Assembly (NCBI RefSeq): GCF_000817735.3
Contig: NZ_JTJC03000005.1
Coordinates: 186,001-250,000 of the forward strand
Direction of reading: 5' to 3'
Source: Scytonema millei VB511283
GTDB taxonomy: Bacteria; Cyanobacteriota; Cyanobacteriia; Cyanobacteriales; Chroococcidiopsidaceae
DNA length: 64,000 nt
Each line of letters starts with the position of its first letter. Positions within the stretch are counted from its first letter, which is position 1. The position numbers and the translations under genes were made by a program. Under the pieces are notes generated by a model, which was not told where the DNA came from, did not search any database, and saw only the letters and a list, made by a program, of their open reading frames with translations. Shown piece after piece: positions 7,156 through 15,063 of the stretch.

Positions 7156-7773
7156 TTATTCAGAAATTCCTAATATCGCACAGGAAAGATTTGTATCTAA
7201 CTGTCGAATCACTAAACTATTTTGAGAACGACAACCTAACAGCAGTATGTCTGCTGTTTCAGTCTCTACAATATTTTTGAGTTCCGTAGCTAAAGAACCA
7301 AATCGTAGATGAGCCACAAACGTACCTTTCCATGCTTCAGCTAAACATCGCGCTCGCCATAAAATTTCGTCTGCTTGTGCCAATAAAATTGTTTTAGATT
7401 GAGTTGCGAGTGCTTGAGTTCCAGGGAGAGTGGCAACAGGTACAGATTTCTTTTGTCCCCGACGAAAAGTCTTTGAGGAACTGGAGCTATAAATTTTGGT
7501 CAGTAACTCTATTTGTACCTCATCTAAGACATAAACAACGTGAATTGTGACTTGGTTTTGAGTTGCCAAGCGAGTTTGATGAGCAATTAATAAAGCTAGA
7601 TCTAACGCTGCTTGGCTGTCAGGAGAACCGTCATAACCGACAACTAAATTTAGCGATCGCTCGGATGTATTATTCTGAGTTTGGTATCCAGTTGGCATCC
7701 GCAAAATCAGATTGTGTACGTCTTGACTACCTAGAGCATTTTGCAGCCGCGCCAGAATTGGTTTGAGATTCAC
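7156..7773 (-). CDS. Universal stress protein (UspA family)
   Basis: Start is set at GTG 7773, after AAAGGA. The open frame continues 29 codons upstream, but that part is translated heptad repeat (Ser/Pro/Leu-rich) and is unlikely to be protein. The 205 residues contain LNLVVGYDGSPDSQAALDLA near 42-61, a strand TIHVVYVLDEV and an alpha/beta fold ending ADILLLGCRSQNS. The typical G-2x-G-9x-G(S/T) ATP loop is not evident. It is the last gene after the NrtABD-like importer, 134 bp from the ATPase gene, and may be carried by the same riboswitch-led transcript. Confidence 0.85.
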   Translation of the reverse strand: MNLKPILARLQNALGSQDVHNLILRMPTGYQTQNNTSERSLNLVVGYDGSPDSQAALDLALLIAHQTRLATQNQVTIHVVYVLDEVQIELLTKIYSSSSSKTFRRGQKKSVPVATLPGTQALATQSKTILLAQADEILWRARCLAEAWKGTFVAHLRFGSLATELKNIVETETADILLLGCRSQNSLVIRQLDTNLSCAILGISE

Positions 7774-7907: not shown

Positions 7908-8747
7908 TTATTCGTCTTGGGTAAAATAGCGATCGAGAAAATCTAAGGCGCGATCGCGTAATTCCATGTATTCTGATGAATGTCTCATAGCATGGCGATC
8001 GCGTGGGTGAGGAAAGGGAACGTCGATAATTTCACCAATTTTAGCGTTTGGTCCATTGGTCATTAAAACAATGCGATCGGACATATAAATTGCCTCTTCT
8101 ACGTCATGAGTAATCATCATCACTGCTTGCCGTTGATTTTCCCAAATATCTAAAACTTGTCTTTGTAATTTTCCGCGAGTGAGAGCATCTAATGCTCCGA
8201 AAGGTTCGTCCATTAGTAGCATTTTCGGACGAGTTGCTAAAGCTCTAGCAATTCCTACTCGCTGCTTCATTCCTCCCGATATTTCATCAGGATACTTATC
8301 TGCTGCTGCTGTTAAATTCACCATTGCTAAGTGTTCGTTAACAATGCTAATTTTTTCGGCACGGCTAGCATTTTTTATCACTTCATCTACTGCGAGCCTA
8401 ACATTTTCCCTTACTGTTAACCACGGTAATAGGGAATATTGTTGAAACACCATCATTCTTTCTGCGCCTGGTTTGCGGATTTCTTTCCCTTCCAGTCTTA
8501 CCGATCCGGCAGTCGCTTTTTCTAACCCAGCCACAATTTTTAGTAGGGTTGATTTACCGCAGCCAGAGTGACCGATAACAGAAATATACTCGTCTTCTGC
8601 AATAGTCAGATCGATGCCATCGAGAACGACAAATTCACTGCCATTGGGATTGCGGTAAGCTTTGACGAGGTTTTTAATTTCTAGAAAGTTGCGAGCATCA
8701 TAGTCAAGCTCGTTTTGGTTAGGATAAAAAGTTGTAGATTTGGTCAT
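7908..8747 (-). CDS. ABC transporter ATPase, NrtD/CynD/SsuB type
   Basis: A 279-residue ATP-binding subunit of a NitT/TauT-family importer. It has Walker A GHSGCGKST (59-67), the Q-loop MVFQQYSLLPWLTV, signature SGGMKQRVGIARAL, Walker B LLMDEPFGALD and the H-loop MITHDVEEA. It is a single-domain NrtD-like subunit; there is no NrtC-like regulatory fusion. It is third in the order permease, binding protein, ATPase on the minus strand. GGGAGTA heptads fill the 56-bp gap upstream. Substrate cannot be set from this subunit. Confidence 0.92.
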   Translation of the reverse strand: MTKSTTFYPNQNELDYDARNFLEIKNLVKAYRNPNGSEFVVLDGIDLTIAEDEYISVIGHSGCGKSTLLKIVAGLEKATAGSVRLEGKEIRKPGAERMMVFQQYSLLPWLTVRENVRLAVDEVIKNASRAEKISIVNEHLAMVNLTAAADKYPDEISGGMKQRVGIARALATRPKMLLMDEPFGALDALTRGKLQRQVLDIWENQRQAVMMITHDVEEAIYMSDRIVLMTNGPNAKIGEIIDVPFPHPRDRHAMRHSSEYMELRDRALDFLDRYFTQDE

Positions 8748-8803: not shown

Positions 8804-10204
8804 TTAACTAGACATAAAAAAAGATTTGGGGCGATTTGCTCTAATTTCAAAACTGTTGAGATATCCGACTGGATCGCTAGGATCGAAGGCTTTTTTGTCA
8901 ATAAAAGCTGTGGCTGGTTCTACCTTGTAATCTTCTTGCGGGCATTCAATTCCCATTTCGGCAGCAATTTCGCGGTATAAATCAGTCCTCCACGCTTTTC
9001 GGGCTACAGCTTCGGCATTTTTGGGAACTTCTGGGATTTGTCCCCACCGTACTGATTGAGTCATCAACCACAGGCTTTGAGACTGCCATAAAAAAGTGGA
9101 ATGGTCGTTTGGGATTGTGGCAAGGTGAGCTGGATAATCGAAAAAGACTGTTGTTTCCGGCGCTTTGACAAGCCGCTTTTCACCATCAAAACCACCGTAG
9201 TTGTATTCCCCGACGATCGCCGCGCGGGTCAATTTCGGCTTAGCCGCAGTAAAGGAACGTTGTGAGATTAATTTAGCAACTTCTTCCCGATTTTCTGGTC
9301 TACTGCAATACTGACAGGCTTCAATCATTGCCTTAACGAGCGATCGATAGGTTCTTGGATAGTTGGTAATAAAGCTTTCCATCACCCCCAGCAAGCGATC
9401 TGGATGTCCTTGCCAAATTTCTCTACCTTGGGCAAAGGTAAAGCCTACACCCTCATTACCAGTAATGGCGCGAGTGTTCCAAGGTTCGGCAACCATATAA
9501 GCTTGCATCGCCCCAATCCGCACGTTCGTCACCATCTGAGGTGGAGGAATGATAATAATCCGAAATTCTTTGGTCGGATCTACACCCGCCGCCGCTGAGA
9601 GGTAGCGGACGAAATATTCATAAATAGCAGAACTTAACACGACTGCCCAGACTCGCTTTTCTGAAGCCAAGTTGTCGAAATAGTTGCGAAAATCGCGCCC
9701 GAATTCTTCTAAATTGCCGTTGTACTCTCGCCAAGGACGCAAACCAGCATCCCACATGGCGCGGTTCATGGTCATAGCGTTGCCGTGGCGGTGGATTGTC
9801 ATTGCCGCACATAGGGGGGCATGACGTGCGCCTTCTGCCCCTGTCCTAGCATTGGTAACAGCGCCGCTGACAACGGGAGCAGCATCGGTACGTCCGAAGA
9901 TGATGCCATCTCGTGAAGTTCCCCAGCTAGCTTCGCGGTTGAGTTTGACATTTAGTCCATACTTGCGGAAAAATCCTTTCTGCCAAGCGATCGCAAATGG
10001 GGCGCAGTCGTTGACTGGTACGTAACCTACAGTCAAATTTGGTTTTTCTAAGGTTTTCGGATCGACTATTTGTTCGATCGCTGCGGCTTCTGCTGTGAGT
10101 CCTGTAGCACTTCTGTCACCGCTTATCGCGCAACCACCCAGCGACATTCCCGCCGCTGTCGCGCCTATTCCTGCTAAAAACTCGCGTCGCGTCCAGTTGT
10201 TCAT
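8804..10204 (-). CDS. NrtA/CmpA/CynA-family substrate-binding lipoprotein or Tat protein
   Basis: The 466-residue protein begins with a twin-arginine signal, NWTRREFLAGIGA, followed by LGGCAISG, which could also be a lipobox, so it may be a Tat-exported lipoprotein. The mature domain opens LTVGYVPVNDCAPFAIAWQK and is a periplasmic-binding-protein type 2 fold of the nitrate/bicarbonate/cyanate group, with the expected length. Nitrate, cyanate, bicarbonate and guanidine binders all share this family. No cyanase, nitrate reductase or guanidine hydrolase gene is nearby, so the ligand is open. It lies between the permease and the ATPase. Confidence 0.9.
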   Translation of the reverse strand: MNNWTRREFLAGIGATAAGMSLGGCAISGDRSATGLTAEAAAIEQIVDPKTLEKPNLTVGYVPVNDCAPFAIAWQKGFFRKYGLNVKLNREASWGTSRDGIIFGRTDAAPVVSGAVTNARTGAEGARHAPLCAAMTIHRHGNAMTMNRAMWDAGLRPWREYNGNLEEFGRDFRNYFDNLASEKRVWAVVLSSAIYEYFVRYLSAAAGVDPTKEFRIIIIPPPQMVTNVRIGAMQAYMVAEPWNTRAITGNEGVGFTFAQGREIWQGHPDRLLGVMESFITNYPRTYRSLVKAMIEACQYCSRPENREEVAKLISQRSFTAAKPKLTRAAIVGEYNYGGFDGEKRLVKAPETTVFFDYPAHLATIPNDHSTFLWQSQSLWLMTQSVRWGQIPEVPKNAEAVARKAWRTDLYREIAAEMGIECPQEDYKVEPATAFIDKKAFDPSDPVGYLNSFEIRANRPKSFFMSS

Positions 10205-10316: not shown

Positions 10317-11159
10317 CTAAGCAGGGCGGCGGTGGATGACTAGAGATTCAATTTTGGCAACGGCAAAGTCTAATAGTAAGCCTGTTAAGCCAATGACCAA
10401 GACTGCGAGGAAGACAGAACTGAGATTGAGGCGACTCCATTCATCCCAGACAAAAAAGCCAATGCCAACACCACCTGTGAGCATTTCTACGGCAACAATT
10501 ACCAGCCAAGCGATACCTAAACTAATGCGCAAGCCTGTAAAAATATAAGGTAAGCTGGCGGGCAAAATAATTTTAGTTATCTGTCTCCAGCGTGGCATTT
10601 CCAGAACTCTAGCCACGTTGATATAGTCTTTCGATACGCTCGAAACACCCAAGGCTGTATTAATAATTGTGGGCCACAAAGAAGTAATAAAAATTACAAA
10701 AATTGCCGAGGGATCTGCCAAATTAAAAATAGCTAGGGCGATCGGCAACCACGCTAAAGGCGATACAGGTTTGAAGATTTGAATAATGGGATTGAGTGCC
10801 ATCATTGCTGGCTTTGACATTCCAATCAAGAAGCCAACAGGAATTGCTACTGCTGCGCCTAAAGCAAATCCAAGTAACACTCGTCGCAGACTTGCCAACA
10901 ACAGCCAGCCAATGCCTAAATCGCCTGGACCGCGTTGGTAAAATGGGTTGAGAATGTAGTCTAAATTCGCTACTAATGCTTGTGGTGGCGTAGGCATTAA
11001 TTCAGGATTGACAAGGGCGATCGCCCACCACAAAATAATGATGCCTAAGAAACCAGCGGCAGGTAACAAAACGGCATCCCTGATGACAATCGGTCTAACC
11101 CTTTTCCACGCAGCTTGTCCGGCTACTGCTAGAGTAGCAAGATTTAACTGAAATATCAT
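10317..11159 (-). CDS. ABC transporter permease, NrtB/CynB type
   Basis: The 280-residue protein has about six transmembrane helices. The EAA loop is visible in the segment ARVLEMPRWRQITKIILPASLPYIFTGLR (central part near residue 180-205), where it contacts the ATPase. Family and length fit NrtB-like permeases of the NitT/TauT class. It is the first gene of the importer operon and is preceded by a roughly 100-bp leader and the c-di-AMP riboswitch at 11258-11402. That makes it the direct target of the riboswitch. Confidence 0.92.
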   Translation of the reverse strand: MIFQLNLATLAVAGQAAWKRVRPIVIRDAVLLPAAGFLGIIILWWAIALVNPELMPTPPQALVANLDYILNPFYQRGPGDLGIGWLLLASLRRVLLGFALGAAVAIPVGFLIGMSKPAMMALNPIIQIFKPVSPLAWLPIALAIFNLADPSAIFVIFITSLWPTIINTALGVSSVSKDYINVARVLEMPRWRQITKIILPASLPYIFTGLRISLGIAWLVIVAVEMLTGGVGIGFFVWDEWSRLNLSSVFLAVLVIGLTGLLLDFAVAKIESLVIHRRPA

Positions 11160-11257
11160 ATTGATACTCCTCAGAGTCGATCGCAGGTACGTAAAATCGA
11201 GCAGTACCAGACAGGAACACTGATGAGTTCAAAACATTAATCAAATAATGCTTACTC

Positions 11258-11402
11258 TTCAGTCTCCTCTCAATGCCTACGAAGTTAGCTGACGGGCTAG
11301 GGCTGAGAGATGCCCCTCTTAAATCAAGATAAGCCCCTTACAATTGGTTCCTCCGCTCTAGTCTCATCTATGTGCAGATGAAGGACTAGATTAGGCTGAC
11401 TT
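11258..11402 (-). ncRNA. c-di-AMP (ydaO-yuaA) riboswitch upstream of the NrtABD-like importer
   Basis: Read on the minus strand, the DNA holds the hallmark blocks of the ydaO-yuaA class in order: a 5' P1 strand with CCTAATC, GCGGAGGAACC, GGGGCTTATC, then CCGTCAGCTAACTTCGTAGG and a 3' strand GAGAGGAG. The CCGTCAGCTAAC..CGTAGGC block is essentially diagnostic. The aptamer ends about 100 bp before the permease ATG. In this class, ligand binding usually turns genes off. I could not identify the expression platform with certainty. Confidence 0.9.
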
Positions 11403-11635
11403 ACTCTAATCTTTTCCAAGATATCATCGCCATTTCTCTACCGTCAATCATTCTATAGATATATGTATTTATTTGGTAATTGGTAGTTGGTAATTGGTAG
11501 ATGGTAAAGGAGTGCTGATAGTTTTTTGGGTGGCGATCGTAAATGACAAGTGAGTCATGAGTCGTGAGAGGAAGTGTGTAGTAGAAATTGCGACTGCCAA
11601 TGACAAATGACGCATGACAAATGACAAATGACCAA

Positions 11636-12973
11636 TTAAATCAAAAACCGAATTGTAACGTATATAGCAGCAGTTACTAATTGGACTGCCATCACGGGTA
11701 AACCATATTTAAGAAAGGTTTTAAATGAAATTCGCCGTCCGTGTTGTTCGGCAATTCCGGCAGCAACTATGTTAGAAGAAGCTCCAACCAAAGTTCCGTT
11801 TCCGCCTAACGTTGCACCAAACATCATGGCGTAAAACAGGGGTAAGGCTTCTGCTGGCAACTCTCCTGTAAAACTTTTTTCTAGAATTGCTGGCGATGCT
11901 AAACCAATATTGACTACATACTGTTTGAGTAACGGAACCATTGCCACAACCAAAGGAATGTTTGGCACGACACTAGAGACTATACCAACAAAAAAGAGTA
12001 ACGCTAGCGAACCTAAAGCAATATTTTTCCCTAAAATTGCTGCTAGAACACCAGAGAGGCTAGTTACGACTCCAGTTTTCTCTAGTCCACCAATTAAGAC
12101 AAAAATGGACATAAAGAATATTAACGTACTCCAATCGACATCTCGCAAAATATTATTAACTGTATCAATTTTGCTATGATGCGACAGTAACAATGCTAAA
12201 GCTGCACCTAATAAAGCTACCGCAGCAGGAGAAATTGGAATTGGCAGCATCTCCCCAATAACAAAAAATATTAAAACGCCTGCGATTAAAACAATTCCTA
12301 ATGTTAAAACTTGAGGATGGTTGATTTTTGGATGGGGGAGATGTTCTAAATCTTCTAAATCTTTATGCCAAATCTTACGAAATAGAAATGGTAGCATTGC
12401 AACCACAGTAATAACTGCAACAACTCCACCTAAACTGAGGCGCGCCAGGTAATCAATAAAGCTGACGTTTACGGCATCTCCAACAATAAATGTAGCTGGA
12501 TCTCCTACCAATGTTAGTAATCCGGCACTGTTGGCTACGAATACCATTAAAATAAGTAGCGGTACAAAGTTTACCCCTACTTCCTCTGCAATCGGAGGAA
12601 TCAGCGGTGCTAGTAACATAACTGTTGTAGCATTGGGCAAAAAGGCGCAAATTGGAGTTGTAATTGCCACAATTCCCAGTAGTAAGCGCTTGCCTTGTCC
12701 TTTAGCTAAAATAACAATTTGGGTGGCTAAGTATTCAAAAACTTTTGTAGGTTCAAATGCTCGTACCAACACCATTACACCAAAAAACAAAGCAATAGTA
12801 GAGTAGCTATTACCAATATACCCAATTGCTTCATTTAGTGTTAGCACATTTGTAAAAACAAGAATTAATGCTCCTAAAAACGCCGCGATAGTCAAGTGTA
12901 TCCATTCTGTCATCACGAAAAAGATGACAGTAAGGAAAGTAATAGTGCTAGCGATCGCCTGCCAGTTTTCCAT
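11636..12973 (-). CDS. ArsB/NhaD-type ion permease (SLC13/IT superfamily)
   Basis: A 445-residue protein with about 11-12 membrane helices. Two conserved hairpin-like segments, PNATTVMLLAPL near 114 and GNGTLVGASSNIVAAG near 394, match the repeated reentrant motifs of the ion transporter superfamily (ArsB, NhaD, citrate permeases). NhaD-type Na+/H+ exchange is a reasonable guess; arsenite export is less likely, as no ars genes adjoin. The gene is on the minus strand 370 bp downstream of the second c-di-AMP riboswitch, with a short reading frame and a hairpin in between, consistent with control of ion flux by c-di-AMP. Confidence 0.88.
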   Translation of the reverse strand: MENWQAIASTITFLTVIFFVMTEWIHLTIAAFLGALILVFTNVLTLNEAIGYIGNSYSTIALFFGVMVLVRAFEPTKVFEYLATQIVILAKGQGKRLLLGIVAITTPICAFLPNATTVMLLAPLIPPIAEEVGVNFVPLLILMVFVANSAGLLTLVGDPATFIVGDAVNVSFIDYLARLSLGGVVAVITVVAMLPFLFRKIWHKDLEDLEHLPHPKINHPQVLTLGIVLIAGVLIFFVIGEMLPIPISPAAVALLGAALALLLSHHSKIDTVNNILRDVDWSTLIFFMSIFVLIGGLEKTGVVTSLSGVLAAILGKNIALGSLALLFFVGIVSSVVPNIPLVVAMVPLLKQYVVNIGLASPAILEKSFTGELPAEALPLFYAMMFGATLGGNGTLVGASSNIVAAGIAEQHGRRISFKTFLKYGLPVMAVQLVTAAIYVTIRFLI

Positions 12974-13016
12974 GTTTTTGCTACTGGTTTTAGTATTGAT
13001 TATTTTAGCTAAACTC

Positions 13017-13046
13017 GTAGAGCTTTACATTCATGTAAAGCTCTAC
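13017..13046 (-). terminator. Perfect 14-bp-arm hairpin ahead of the permease gene
   Basis: GTAGAGCTTTACAT and its exact reverse complement are separated by two bases. It sits between the riboswitch-linked short frame and the permease start at 12973. It may attenuate read-through into the permease, or be a member of the GTAG..CTAC palindrome family. There is no clear T-run after it on the minus strand, so it may not be an intrinsic terminator. Confidence 0.5.
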
Positions 13047-13085
13047 TAATGCACTCGATATTTGTGGGTAGTTAGCTACATACGG

Positions 13086-13244
13086 CTAAGGTAATGAAGC
13101 GATCGCATCTGTCGGCGATTCTGAAACTACAGCAGCCCTATCTGATGCTTGAAATTCAAGTGTAGTAGAGTGGACGTTACCCGCCTGACAATTCCTCAAG
13201 GCGAATTGCTTGATTTTTGCAAGCGATGTTTGTTGGATTTTCAT
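13086..13244 (-). CDS. Short 52-residue frame behind the second riboswitch
   Basis: ATG at 13244 opens a frame of 52 residues starting MKIQQTSLAKIKQF and ending at TAG 13086. I do not recognise it. It continues in the same frame as the 31-codon stretch immediately upstream (13248-13343), from which it is separated by TAG and one CAG codon, so the two may be halves of one interrupted gene. It lies directly behind the c-di-AMP riboswitch. Composition (Ala, Ser, Gln, Thr) does not resemble a random intergenic frame, but evidence for translation is weak. Confidence 0.4.
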   Translation of the reverse strand: MKIQQTSLAKIKQFALRNCQAGNVHSTTLEFQASDRAAVVSESPTDAIASLP

Positions 13245-13247
13245 CTG

Positions 13248-13343
13248 CTATTTTTCAGTCTCTTTAAGTGCAGGTACAACAGGCTTAACAGTACGAGCCT
13301 TAGAAGCTGAACCAAGCAGAACATTATTGATAATGTTGCTTAT
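13248..13343 (-). pseudogene. Frame without ATG immediately after riboswitch, possible decayed leader protein
   Basis: The riboswitch's 3' strand GAGAGGAG sits six bases before an ATA codon at 13343. From there the frame reads ISNIINNVLLGSASKARTVK and stops after 31 codons at TAG 13248. ATA stands exactly where a start codon would be expected. The next 52-codon frame is in phase. A related but more decayed sequence follows the first riboswitch (11225-11257). A small gene once placed behind this riboswitch and now degenerate is a fair reading. Confidence 0.35.
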
Positions 13344-13345
13344 TT

Positions 13346-13556
13346 CAGTCTCCTCTCAACGCCTACGGAGTTAGCTGACGGGCTAGAACTGAGAGATGTT
13401 CTTCTTGTCAAGGATGAACTATGAAGCTCTGAACTCGATACTCGTTCTTGCTAATTCATCTTTGAACCAGATAAGCCCCAGATTTTGGTTCCTCCGCTCC
13501 AGTTTTACTAACGATTTGAACTCCTCAACACAGACAACACTGGATTAGGCTAACTG
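13346..13556 (-). ncRNA. c-di-AMP (ydaO-yuaA) riboswitch upstream of the ArsB/NhaD-type permease
   Basis: The minus strand carries the same conserved blocks as the first copy: CCTAATCC, GAGCGGAGGAACC, GGGGCTTATC, CCGTCAGCTAACTCCGTAGG and GAGAGGAG. It is about 65 bp longer because of an enlarged variable arm between GGGGCTTATC and the TCTCTCAGTTCTAGCC segment, which contains GATGAA and its complement TTCATC. Downstream in the same direction are the short frames at 13343-13086 and the permease at 12973. Confidence 0.9.
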
Positions 13557-13735
13557 TTTTCAAACTATTGAAGAGAAATTTAACATTCTTACTCAAATTC
13601 GTCAAATTATTTCGGGCAACGTTCAATATTTTGCAGTCAAATACAATAATATCAAGCCAGATTCTTCAGCAGATGAATTAAAAAACATTAAAAAACTATG
13701 CGTGTCGAAAAGCTTTGCCGCTAAATCCACGACAT
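13557..13735 (+). pseudogene. Start-less coding-like fragment
   Basis: A plus-strand frame reads IEEKFNILTQIRQIISGNVQ and continues about 60 codons to TAG at 13735. It has coding-like composition but no ATG, GTG or TTG start and begins within the riboswitch flank. It may be a gene remnant. I cannot name the family, and it could be chance. Confidence 0.25.
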
Positions 13736-13839
13736 AGGAGTGCGGAGAAACAACTTGCGGACTACCACCATAGCATCGCTACCAAGGTATCGAACGATAG
13801 AGTGGTTACACCGTCTGGCAAGTTCCTATAAACTGAAGA

Positions 13840-15063
13840 TTGCCATGCTTACCTCTATGCGTACTTGAAGTGATGCAAGATTTCAGTCAACTGCTGCTCG
13901 ATCGAAGCGATACGATTTTGAAGGACTGGATTGCTGCCATTCGTGCAGATAACCAAATTGAAACAGCTAACGAGCTGCCGTACAAGTCTTTACAAGACAG
14001 CATACCGCGCGTGATTCAAGCGATGGCAACAGTGCTTTCTCAATCGCAAAATAGCGATTTGAAGACACTAGTAGAGGTGAGTTTAGAACACGGTGTCATC
14101 AGGGCAGAACAAGGATTTGAGGCTGGGGAAATTGCCCGAGAGTATCGAATTCTGCGTCATGTTATTTTCTCTACCATTGAGACAAGCTTGCAAACAAGCT
14201 CAGCGTTAGAGGTAATTCGTGCTTTTCGATTAATTGATACTGTCATTGATGAAGCGATCGCGCGCTGCTTTAAAAGCTACACCGAGCAACGATTGGCAGA
14301 ACTACAACAGCTACAAAGTCAACTGACACTCAACAACCAGGAATTAACGCGGCTGGTGCGGGCAAATCGCGAAAACCTTTCTCATCTCGCCCACGAACTG
14401 AAATCTCCTTTGACTTCGATTATTGGCTATGCCGATCTATTTTTGCGCCTACAACGAAAAGACAGAGTTGAAGTCAAAGATAGCTACGCCAATATAGAAC
14501 ATATCGAACGGGTGCTAAGCGGTGGTAGGCATTTATTGCACCTGATTAACGATGCTTTAGAAATCTCGCGATACGAAGCAGGGCAAATGCAACTCCAGCC
14601 CGCAACAGTCGAGATTCGCGAGTTAACAAGCGATCTTGTTGCTATGATGCAACCTGCGGCACAAGCGAAGGAACTCAAATTGATCCTCGACTTAGCATCA
14701 GCCCCAGAAAAAGTTGTGACAGATTCGTTACGAATGCAGCAAATTGTGACAAATCTGATTAGTAATGCGATTCGTTACACGCTAGATGGAAAGATTTCGG
14801 TGAAATGTTGGACGCTCGATCGCGAACGATGGGCGATCGCAGTTGCCGATACAGGCGTGGGAATTGCGCCAGAAGCACAGCAGCGCGTGTTTGAACCCTA
14901 TTTTCAAGCCGGAACGATCGCCATACCCAACAGCACGGGTTTAGGGCTGGCGATCGTTTCACGTTTAGTCAAGCTGTTGCAAGGAAAGATTGAATTAGCC
15001 TCTGAGGTTGGAGTTGGCTCAACGTTTACAGTGACTTTTCCGCTAAAAGTTAAGACAAGTTAA
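13840..15063 (+). CDS. Histidine kinase with RsbRD-type N-terminal domain
   Basis: A 407-residue soluble kinase. Residues about 15-150 match the RsbRD N-terminal domain (LLLDRSDTILKDWI, then HGVIRAEQGF). A short coiled coil (147-175) leads to the HisKA box NLSHLAHELKSPLTSIIGY with His185, and then a HATPase domain with N box NLISNAIRYT, DTGVGIAPEAQ and GLGLAIVSRLV. No membrane helix. A second ATG at 13873 (Met12) begins nearer the conserved domain and may be the true start. No response regulator gene adjoins, so it is an orphan kinase. Confidence 0.9.
   Translation: MPCLPLCVLEVMQDFSQLLLDRSDTILKDWIAAIRADNQIETANELPYKSLQDSIPRVIQAMATVLSQSQNSDLKTLVEVSLEHGVIRAEQGFEAGEIAREYRILRHVIFSTIETSLQTSSALEVIRAFRLIDTVIDEAIARCFKSYTEQRLAELQQLQSQLTLNNQELTRLVRANRENLSHLAHELKSPLTSIIGYADLFLRLQRKDRVEVKDSYANIEHIERVLSGGRHLLHLINDALEISRYEAGQMQLQPATVEIRELTSDLVAMMQPAAQAKELKLILDLASAPEKVVTDSLRMQQIVTNLISNAIRYTLDGKISVKCWTLDRERWAIAVADTGVGIAPEAQQRVFEPYFQAGTIAIPNSTGLGLAIVSRLVKLLQGKIELASEVGVGSTFTVTFPLKVKTS

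Follow-up and report, generated by a model that had tools for sequence, protein, structure and literature searches.

Two predicted c-di-AMP riboswitches head an NrtABD-like importer operon and an adjacent permease gene in the cyanobacterium Scytonema millei VB511283

Cyclic di-AMP (c-di-AMP) is best known for the control of potassium, and its targets in cyanobacteria are, to our knowledge, largely open. In the 64,000-nucleotide stretch of Scytonema millei VB511283 analysed here (contig NZ_JTJC03000005.1, positions 186,001 to 250,000; hereafter the window), two minus-strand leaders belong by covariance model to the c-di-AMP riboswitch class (RF00379), and they head adjacent transport units, namely an ATP-binding cassette (ABC) importer operon that ends in a universal stress protein (Usp) gene and a permease gene, as an earlier note made from the letters of this DNA had proposed. 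The class is already known, as is one of its cyanobacterial targets, slr0753 of Synechocystis, described as a putative chloride efflux transporter under a c-di-AMP riboswitch (PMC10117731); Nelson 2013 is cited elsewhere for osmoprotectant synthesis and transport under cyanobacterial c-di-AMP riboswitches (PMC5986932). A literature search did not find the importer named as a cyanobacterial c-di-AMP target, and the regulon tables of Nelson 2013 may list it.

The leaders resemble other members of RF00379 in their full-length match, their loop-tail pairing and their place before transport genes, and differ in their cyanobacterial target set of ABC importer, permease and Usp. As in Synechocystis, a permease stands under a c-di-AMP riboswitch, but the window permease adjoins an importer, with a second riboswitch between the two. 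The importer shares with the nitrate/nitrite importer NrtABCD permease and ATPase models over cut-off and the fold of the binding protein; it departs from that system in an ATPase too short for the NrtC domain, in Tyr and Arg at the positions of His196 and Lys269, and in its riboswitch control. With the bicarbonate importer CmpABCD (BCT1) it has superfamily and fold in common, whereas the genome's own CmpA carries Gln and Glu for Tyr and Arg and is located elsewhere. Finally, the riboswitch before a cell-wall peptidase gene of C. glutamicum, for which a translational off-switch based on competing CTCC/GGAG pairings has been proposed (PMC9960051), offers a likeness in mechanism, in a different phylum and with a different target.

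The riboswitch elements of the window are these:

11259 to 11407, minus strand: c-di-AMP riboswitch aptamer of leader 1, before the ABC operon (RF00379, 74.8 bits, E 1.5e-15)
about 11394 to 11396 with 11275 to 11277, minus strand: P1 of leader 1, position read from the sequence
11267 to 11309, minus strand: predicted pseudoknot of leader 1, tail UGAGAG (11267 to 11272) with loop CUCUCA (11304 to 11309), from covariation
13345 to 13550, minus strand: c-di-AMP riboswitch aptamer of leader 2, before the permease (RF00379 match at 13345 to 13532, 51.4 bits, E 5.3e-9; 5' end re-registered by eye against leader 1)
about 13548 to 13550, minus strand: 5' strand of P1 of leader 2, placed by eye against leader 1
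13353 to 13395, minus strand: predicted pseudoknot of leader 2, tail 13353 to 13358 with loop 13390 to 13395, from covariation

Both matches to the Rfam covariance model exceed the gathering score of 38 and run its full length (model positions 1-134), and by this model the leaders are c-di-AMP riboswitches, with ligand binding predicted; the earlier note's identification of both is thereby upheld. At its 5' end the Rfam match of leader 2 seems mis-registered, the true P1 strand starting at about 13550: by eye, without rescoring, this is where the counterpart of the leader 1 strand starts (GCCUAAUCUAG and GCCUAAUCCAG in the two leaders), in agreement with the end coordinate given by the earlier note. 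The pairing of CUCUCA with UGAGAG after P1 is present in both leaders. Loop-tail pairing was followed across 184 sites, comprising 182 matches listed in searches of the class and the family plus the two of the window, the class list being made up of the best-scoring matches; at the 180 sites that were readable (127 distinct pairs), loop-tail covariation had a native mean of 15.7 versus 13.9 (standard deviation (sd) 0.19, maximum 14.4) in 200 partner shuffles. Within the genome itself (5.97 Mb, 17 contigs, 99.95% complete), leaders 1 and 2 are the two RF00379 matches and there is no third at E up to 0.001; as far as this search shows, they form the whole set. One diadenylate cyclase, for c-di-AMP synthesis (PF02457, 129 bits), and one 7TM-HD protein of the c-di-AMP phosphodiesterase type (PF07698) were matched in the same genome.

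The genes behind the two leaders are the following:

10317 to 11159, minus strand: NrtB-like ABC permease (TIGR01183 241.6 bits, cut-off 209)
8804 to 10204, minus strand: solute-binding protein of the NMT1_2 family (PF13379 212.8 bits; alignment of 56 sequences)
7908 to 8747, minus strand: NrtC/D-type ATPase of 279 amino acids (aa) (TIGR01184 357.4 bits, cut-off 291.8)
7156 to 7773, minus strand: Usp (PF00582 40.3 bits, cut-off 24; start by alignment)
11636 to 12973, minus strand: CitMHS/ArsB-like permease, proposed to be of the Slr0753 type (PF03600 211.3 bits)

The operon behind leader 1 runs from the NrtB-like permease through the binding protein and the NrtC/D-type ATPase to the Usp, for which alignment makes the GTG at 7773 a more likely start than 7860. 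Such a target is common, and its association with the riboswitch is widely conserved in cyanobacteria. RF00379 was found in 196 of 388 genomes of the class and in 19 of 19 of the family, and at the 184 sites the first gene, defined as a same-strand open reading frame (ORF) of at least 100 aa within 1000 nt and compared by BLAST with the window proteins, was an NrtB-like permease at 60, a Usp at 51 and a CitMHS/ArsB-like permease at 43, counts in which some starts are wrong because they rest on our own ORF calls and BLAST matching. Rarer first genes were a distant relative of the binding protein (two sites, 28-29% identity) and an ortholog of the ATPase (one site); another gene stood first at 24 sites and none at 3. 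The earlier note had regarded a NitT/TauT-class importer with a Usp as an unusual target of this riboswitch; it is instead the commonest first gene among the sites examined. At each of the 45 nrtB sites followed by 7 kb or more of DNA, the three importer genes were all matched, although our own ORF calls show one or more of them in fragments at 3 of these sites; the same-strand neighbours at the 45 include a Usp at 16 and the permease at 7.

Starting from the importer leads to the same correction. Of the 388 class genomes, 117 encode an ortholog of the binding protein (E up to 1e-150), and RF00379 is present in 110 of these versus 86 of the 271 without one (Fisher p 4e-33, indicative only because the genomes are related). 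When 20 of the 117 ortholog loci were fetched, most of them away from any listed site and two in genomes lacking RF00379, a riboswitch lay some 1-2 kb upstream of the binding-protein gene on the same strand at 18, a gap that would fit an nrtB-like gene; the two loci without it (G151, G108) belong to genomes in which the RF00379 search found none. These counts point to the importer, probably of an anion, as a main c-di-AMP target in many cyanobacteria, and because of them the importer would be a direct handle on the role of c-di-AMP in this phylum.

Representatives of the 24 other sites, searched against family libraries, include MshA-like glycosyltransferases (4 sites, 67-85% identity among them), CPA2 antiporters with a Usp domain, ExoD, M23 peptidases and an S4-domain protein, with a P-type cation ATPase as a second gene. 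At two loci (L117 of genome G127 and L135 of G263) a glycosyltransferase gene, 85% identical between them and assigned to its family from L117, lies between the riboswitch and the importer operon. At two more (L090 of G402 and L158 of G184) the riboswitch precedes sodium/proton-exchanger-type proteins whose own chain includes a Usp domain, which recalls the window, where Usp is a gene by itself. Decay of the importer is seen as well: a genome of the same genus (L092, G396) has lost most of it and keeps a 263-aa permease frame, an ATPase fragment and a full-length Usp behind the leader, a second locus (L076, G398) holds fragments of the three importer genes, and at a third (L060, G037) an nrtB-like remnant can be made out by eye between riboswitch and permease.

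The permease under leader 2 had been called ArsB/NhaD-type in the earlier note, a label that proves loose: the protein is over the Pfam cut-offs of both CitMHS and ArsB but falls far below the NCBIfam cut-offs of ArsB (PRK15445, 111 of 457 bits) and of the NhaD models (TIGR00775, 56 of 577 bits; NF038006, 36 of 80 bits). By analogy it is most likely of the Slr0753 type. Suppressors of a chloride-dependent photosystem II mutant are reported to map to slr0753 (PMC9896922), and a published table enters the gene as a probable transport protein preceded by a conserved ncRNA (PMC5386190). Loci of permease relatives were drawn as the best 80 of 327 from named genomes, and no Synechocystis record is among them. 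Between leader 2 and the permease lies a 52-aa reading frame (13086-13244, minus strand), which among the first fetched loci recurs in only two other genomes of the genus, at 77 and 85% identity versus 98% for the permease; it changes faster than the permease and is not claimed as a hidden gene.

We infer, and consider it likely, that two canonical c-di-AMP riboswitches govern one functional module made up of the NrtB/A/D-type ABC importer, the Slr0753-type permease and the Usp, lowering its expression mainly at translation and thereby tuning anion flux. At high c-di-AMP, the bound aptamer and its pseudoknot tail would most likely lower the expression of each unit; the permease would probably export an anion such as chloride, and control of both units would adjust anion flux and, through it, ionic and osmotic balance. 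A link of the importer to ion or osmotic balance, as the earlier note had suggested, is a reasonable one because of the slr0753 literature and of other targets such as the antiporters and the cation ATPase.

The direction of control was approached through the region between aptamer and start codon, where two elements of leader 1 matter:

11214 to 11267, minus strand: stem-loop directly 3' of aptamer 1 (GGAGACUGA.../UCAGUGUUCC), proposed part of the expression platform (pairs canonical across nrtB leaders; stability)
11167 to 11172, minus strand: Shine-Dalgarno-like GAGGAG of the nrtB-like gene, read from the sequence

Across 59 distinct nrtB leaders, the seven consensus pairs of the stem-loop are each canonical in 56-59; nrtB leaders are also more stable than spacer shuffles (-38.5 versus -31.6 kcal/mol). 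Intrinsic termination found no support as a mode of control: 10900-13900 has a single terminator-like site, on the plus strand, versus 2.5 expected in the interval, and since the coding strand there has none, control may be translational. Occlusion of the Shine-Dalgarno was then compared with shuffled spacers in 70 leaders (69 distinct) from 154 nrtB, usp and permease sites, chosen for having a Shine-Dalgarno-like motif and an ATG at a distance of 40-140 nt from the aptamer end. Locking the tail raised occlusion by more than 0.1 in 45% of nrtB leaders versus 29% of shuffles and in 38% of permease leaders versus 26%, and in the predicted folds of several leaders with the tail locked the 3' strand of the post-aptamer stem pairs with the Shine-Dalgarno region.

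Several results weigh against this account. In usp leaders the same lock raised occlusion in 27% versus 32% of shuffles and lowered it in 20% versus 8%; the locked occlusion of nrtB leaders, at 0.75 versus 0.78 in shuffles, is not higher; and leader 1 has its Shine-Dalgarno largely paired in either state (0.77, 0.96), the partner in the minimum-energy fold being a segment other than the 3' strand of the stem-loop. Leader 2 leaves 371 nt between aptamer and permease, with no evident Shine-Dalgarno. The permease is likened to Slr0753 by its riboswitch control, and the regulon is not transport alone, because representatives of the other targets include cell-wall peptidases and proteins of unclear role. 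Occlusion was therefore set aside as proof of an off-switch, being modest for nrtB and permease leaders, absent for usp leaders and no greater in nrtB leaders than in shuffles; that c-di-AMP acts here by reducing translation is a guess, the test being weak and negative for the usp class.

The opposite direction, in which c-di-AMP binding would raise expression because the hairpin after the aptamer forms alongside the pseudoknot and leaves the Shine-Dalgarno accessible, gains from the same weakness of the test and its failure for usp leaders, and from the layout of the leaders, where the tail (UGAGAG) and the 5' strand of the hairpin (GGAGACUGA) are adjacent and hardly overlap. We nevertheless hold it unlikely, as c-di-AMP riboswitches are described as off-switches and a similar translational model was put forward for C. 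glutamicum (PMC9960051), and as tail locking occludes the Shine-Dalgarno of nrtB and permease leaders somewhat oftener than it does in shuffles.

The preferred account, control of a single module by two off-switches, also depends on what the importer carries. It could in principle be a second nitrate or bicarbonate system, by which c-di-AMP would tie nitrogen or carbon uptake to a day-night signal; its permease and ATPase exceed the cut-offs of the NrtB and NrtC/D models, the binding protein comes closest, among solved structures, to the C-terminal regulatory domains of NrtC and CmpC and next to NrtA and CmpA, and a fold search with a structure model of middling confidence (mean pLDDT 69.4, with low values in parts of the pocket) returned a similar set, the CmpC/NrtC regulatory domains, CmpA and NrtA. 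Yet the genome holds separate systems for both, an NrtA (638 bits to 2g29) next to ferredoxin-nitrite reductase and a CmpA (635 bits to 2i48), both flanked by genes for a permease and a long NrtC/CmpC-type ATPase, and the binding protein is 29-43% identical to these paralogous binding proteins and regulatory domains. The nitrate and bicarbonate systems of this genome, as judged from these loci, are located elsewhere and distinct from the importer. Its pocket has changed too. In NrtA the charge of bound nitrate is balanced by His196 and Lys269 (PMC8786288); at these positions, which the spacing of 73 between them located in the aligned 2g29 sequence, Tyr195 and Arg270 are invariant in all 56 aligned sequences, that of the window included, as are His138 and His140. 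The own CmpA has Gln and Glu in the same columns, its Glu standing at the Lys269 column, where the importer's protein has Arg. A nitrate or bicarbonate importer is on these grounds improbable.

The importer is instead read as a third branch of the NrtABCD/CmpABCD family whose pocket predicts a substrate other than nitrate or bicarbonate; we infer an anion because of family membership and the conserved Arg and His. The N-terminus of the binding protein appears by eye to combine a twin-arginine motif with a lipobox-like one. The ATPase, at 279 aa versus open frames of 691 and 688 aa for the genome's NrtC- and CmpC-type ATPases, is too short to include the C-terminal regulatory domain, described as the route by which PII and nitrate act on NrtC and CmpC (PMC13249358); its orthologs (60 distinct ORFs of at least 60% identity, fragments included) span 103-351 aa.

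Importer, Usp and permease often cluster, in varying orders. At 56 of the best 80 permease loci, where riboswitches were found by motif rather than by covariance model, a binding-protein ortholog lies within the fetched stretch, and the riboswitch motif lies at most 1 kb upstream of the permease at 9 and anywhere in the locus at 61. ABC genes, then Usp, then permease is the order in many Nostocales and permease, then ABC genes that in several Microcoleus, with permease, ABC genes and Usp also seen; permease and ABC genes each have their own riboswitch in Oscillatoria sp. PCC 10802 (L336), Microcoleus vaginatus (L338), an Oscillatoria metagenome-assembled genome (L285) and the window. Plain inheritance of neighbours without shared function would suit the single order common to many loci within a lineage, the riboswitches that elsewhere precede single genes and the 24 of the best 80 permease loci whose fetched stretch, in some cases a short contig, lacks the importer, but is quite improbable, since orders vary between lineages (ABC-Usp-permease, permease-ABC-Usp, separate switches) and the same members recur.

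A bolder form of the module account is tentative and, on balance, doubtful: the third branch, widespread in cyanobacteria, would serve ion balance rather than nutrition and take up an anion so far unassigned in this family, possibly chloride or another osmotically relevant one, and would make up a c-di-AMP anion homeostasis module with the Slr0753-type exporter, the Usp and, in some lineages, an RsbRD_N sensor kinase. Were the substrate chloride or a similar anion, control by c-di-AMP would extend to both sides of salt balance, and such a module, if real, would be the anionic counterpart of the c-di-AMP-controlled potassium transporters of Firmicutes.

Three further features accompany the leaders:

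11418 to 11447, minus strand: promoter-like TTGACG-18-TATCTT with a TG ahead of the -10, immediately 5' of aptamer 1 (consensus scan; suggestive only)
13577 to 13605, minus strand: promoter-like TTGACG-17-TAAATT with a TG ahead of the -10, immediately 5' of aptamer 2 (consensus scan; suggestive only)
13840 to 15063, plus strand: RsbRD_N-HisKA-HATPase sensor kinase, divergent from leader 2 (domain matches)

The two promoter-like sites are well placed and only suggestive, because the scan of the same 3 kb (10900-13900) returned 10 sites where 6.2 (sd 2.0) were expected. The kinase is the genome's only RsbRD_N match. Relatives of at least 45% identity stand divergent upstream of the riboswitch at 15 of 60 nrtB sites, 4 of 43 permease sites and 1 of 51 usp sites; among named loci with at least 1.6 kb upstream, the figures are 26 of 46, 0 of 7 and 0 of 24. 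The binding protein is present in 62 of 105 genomes with RsbRD_N versus 55 of 283 without. Divergent from only part of the riboswitch sites, the kinase was rejected as a fixed part of the module; it is a recurrent, not a constant, partner of riboswitch operons. Two loci (L301, L326) have two kinases each, one before the permease and one before the importer.

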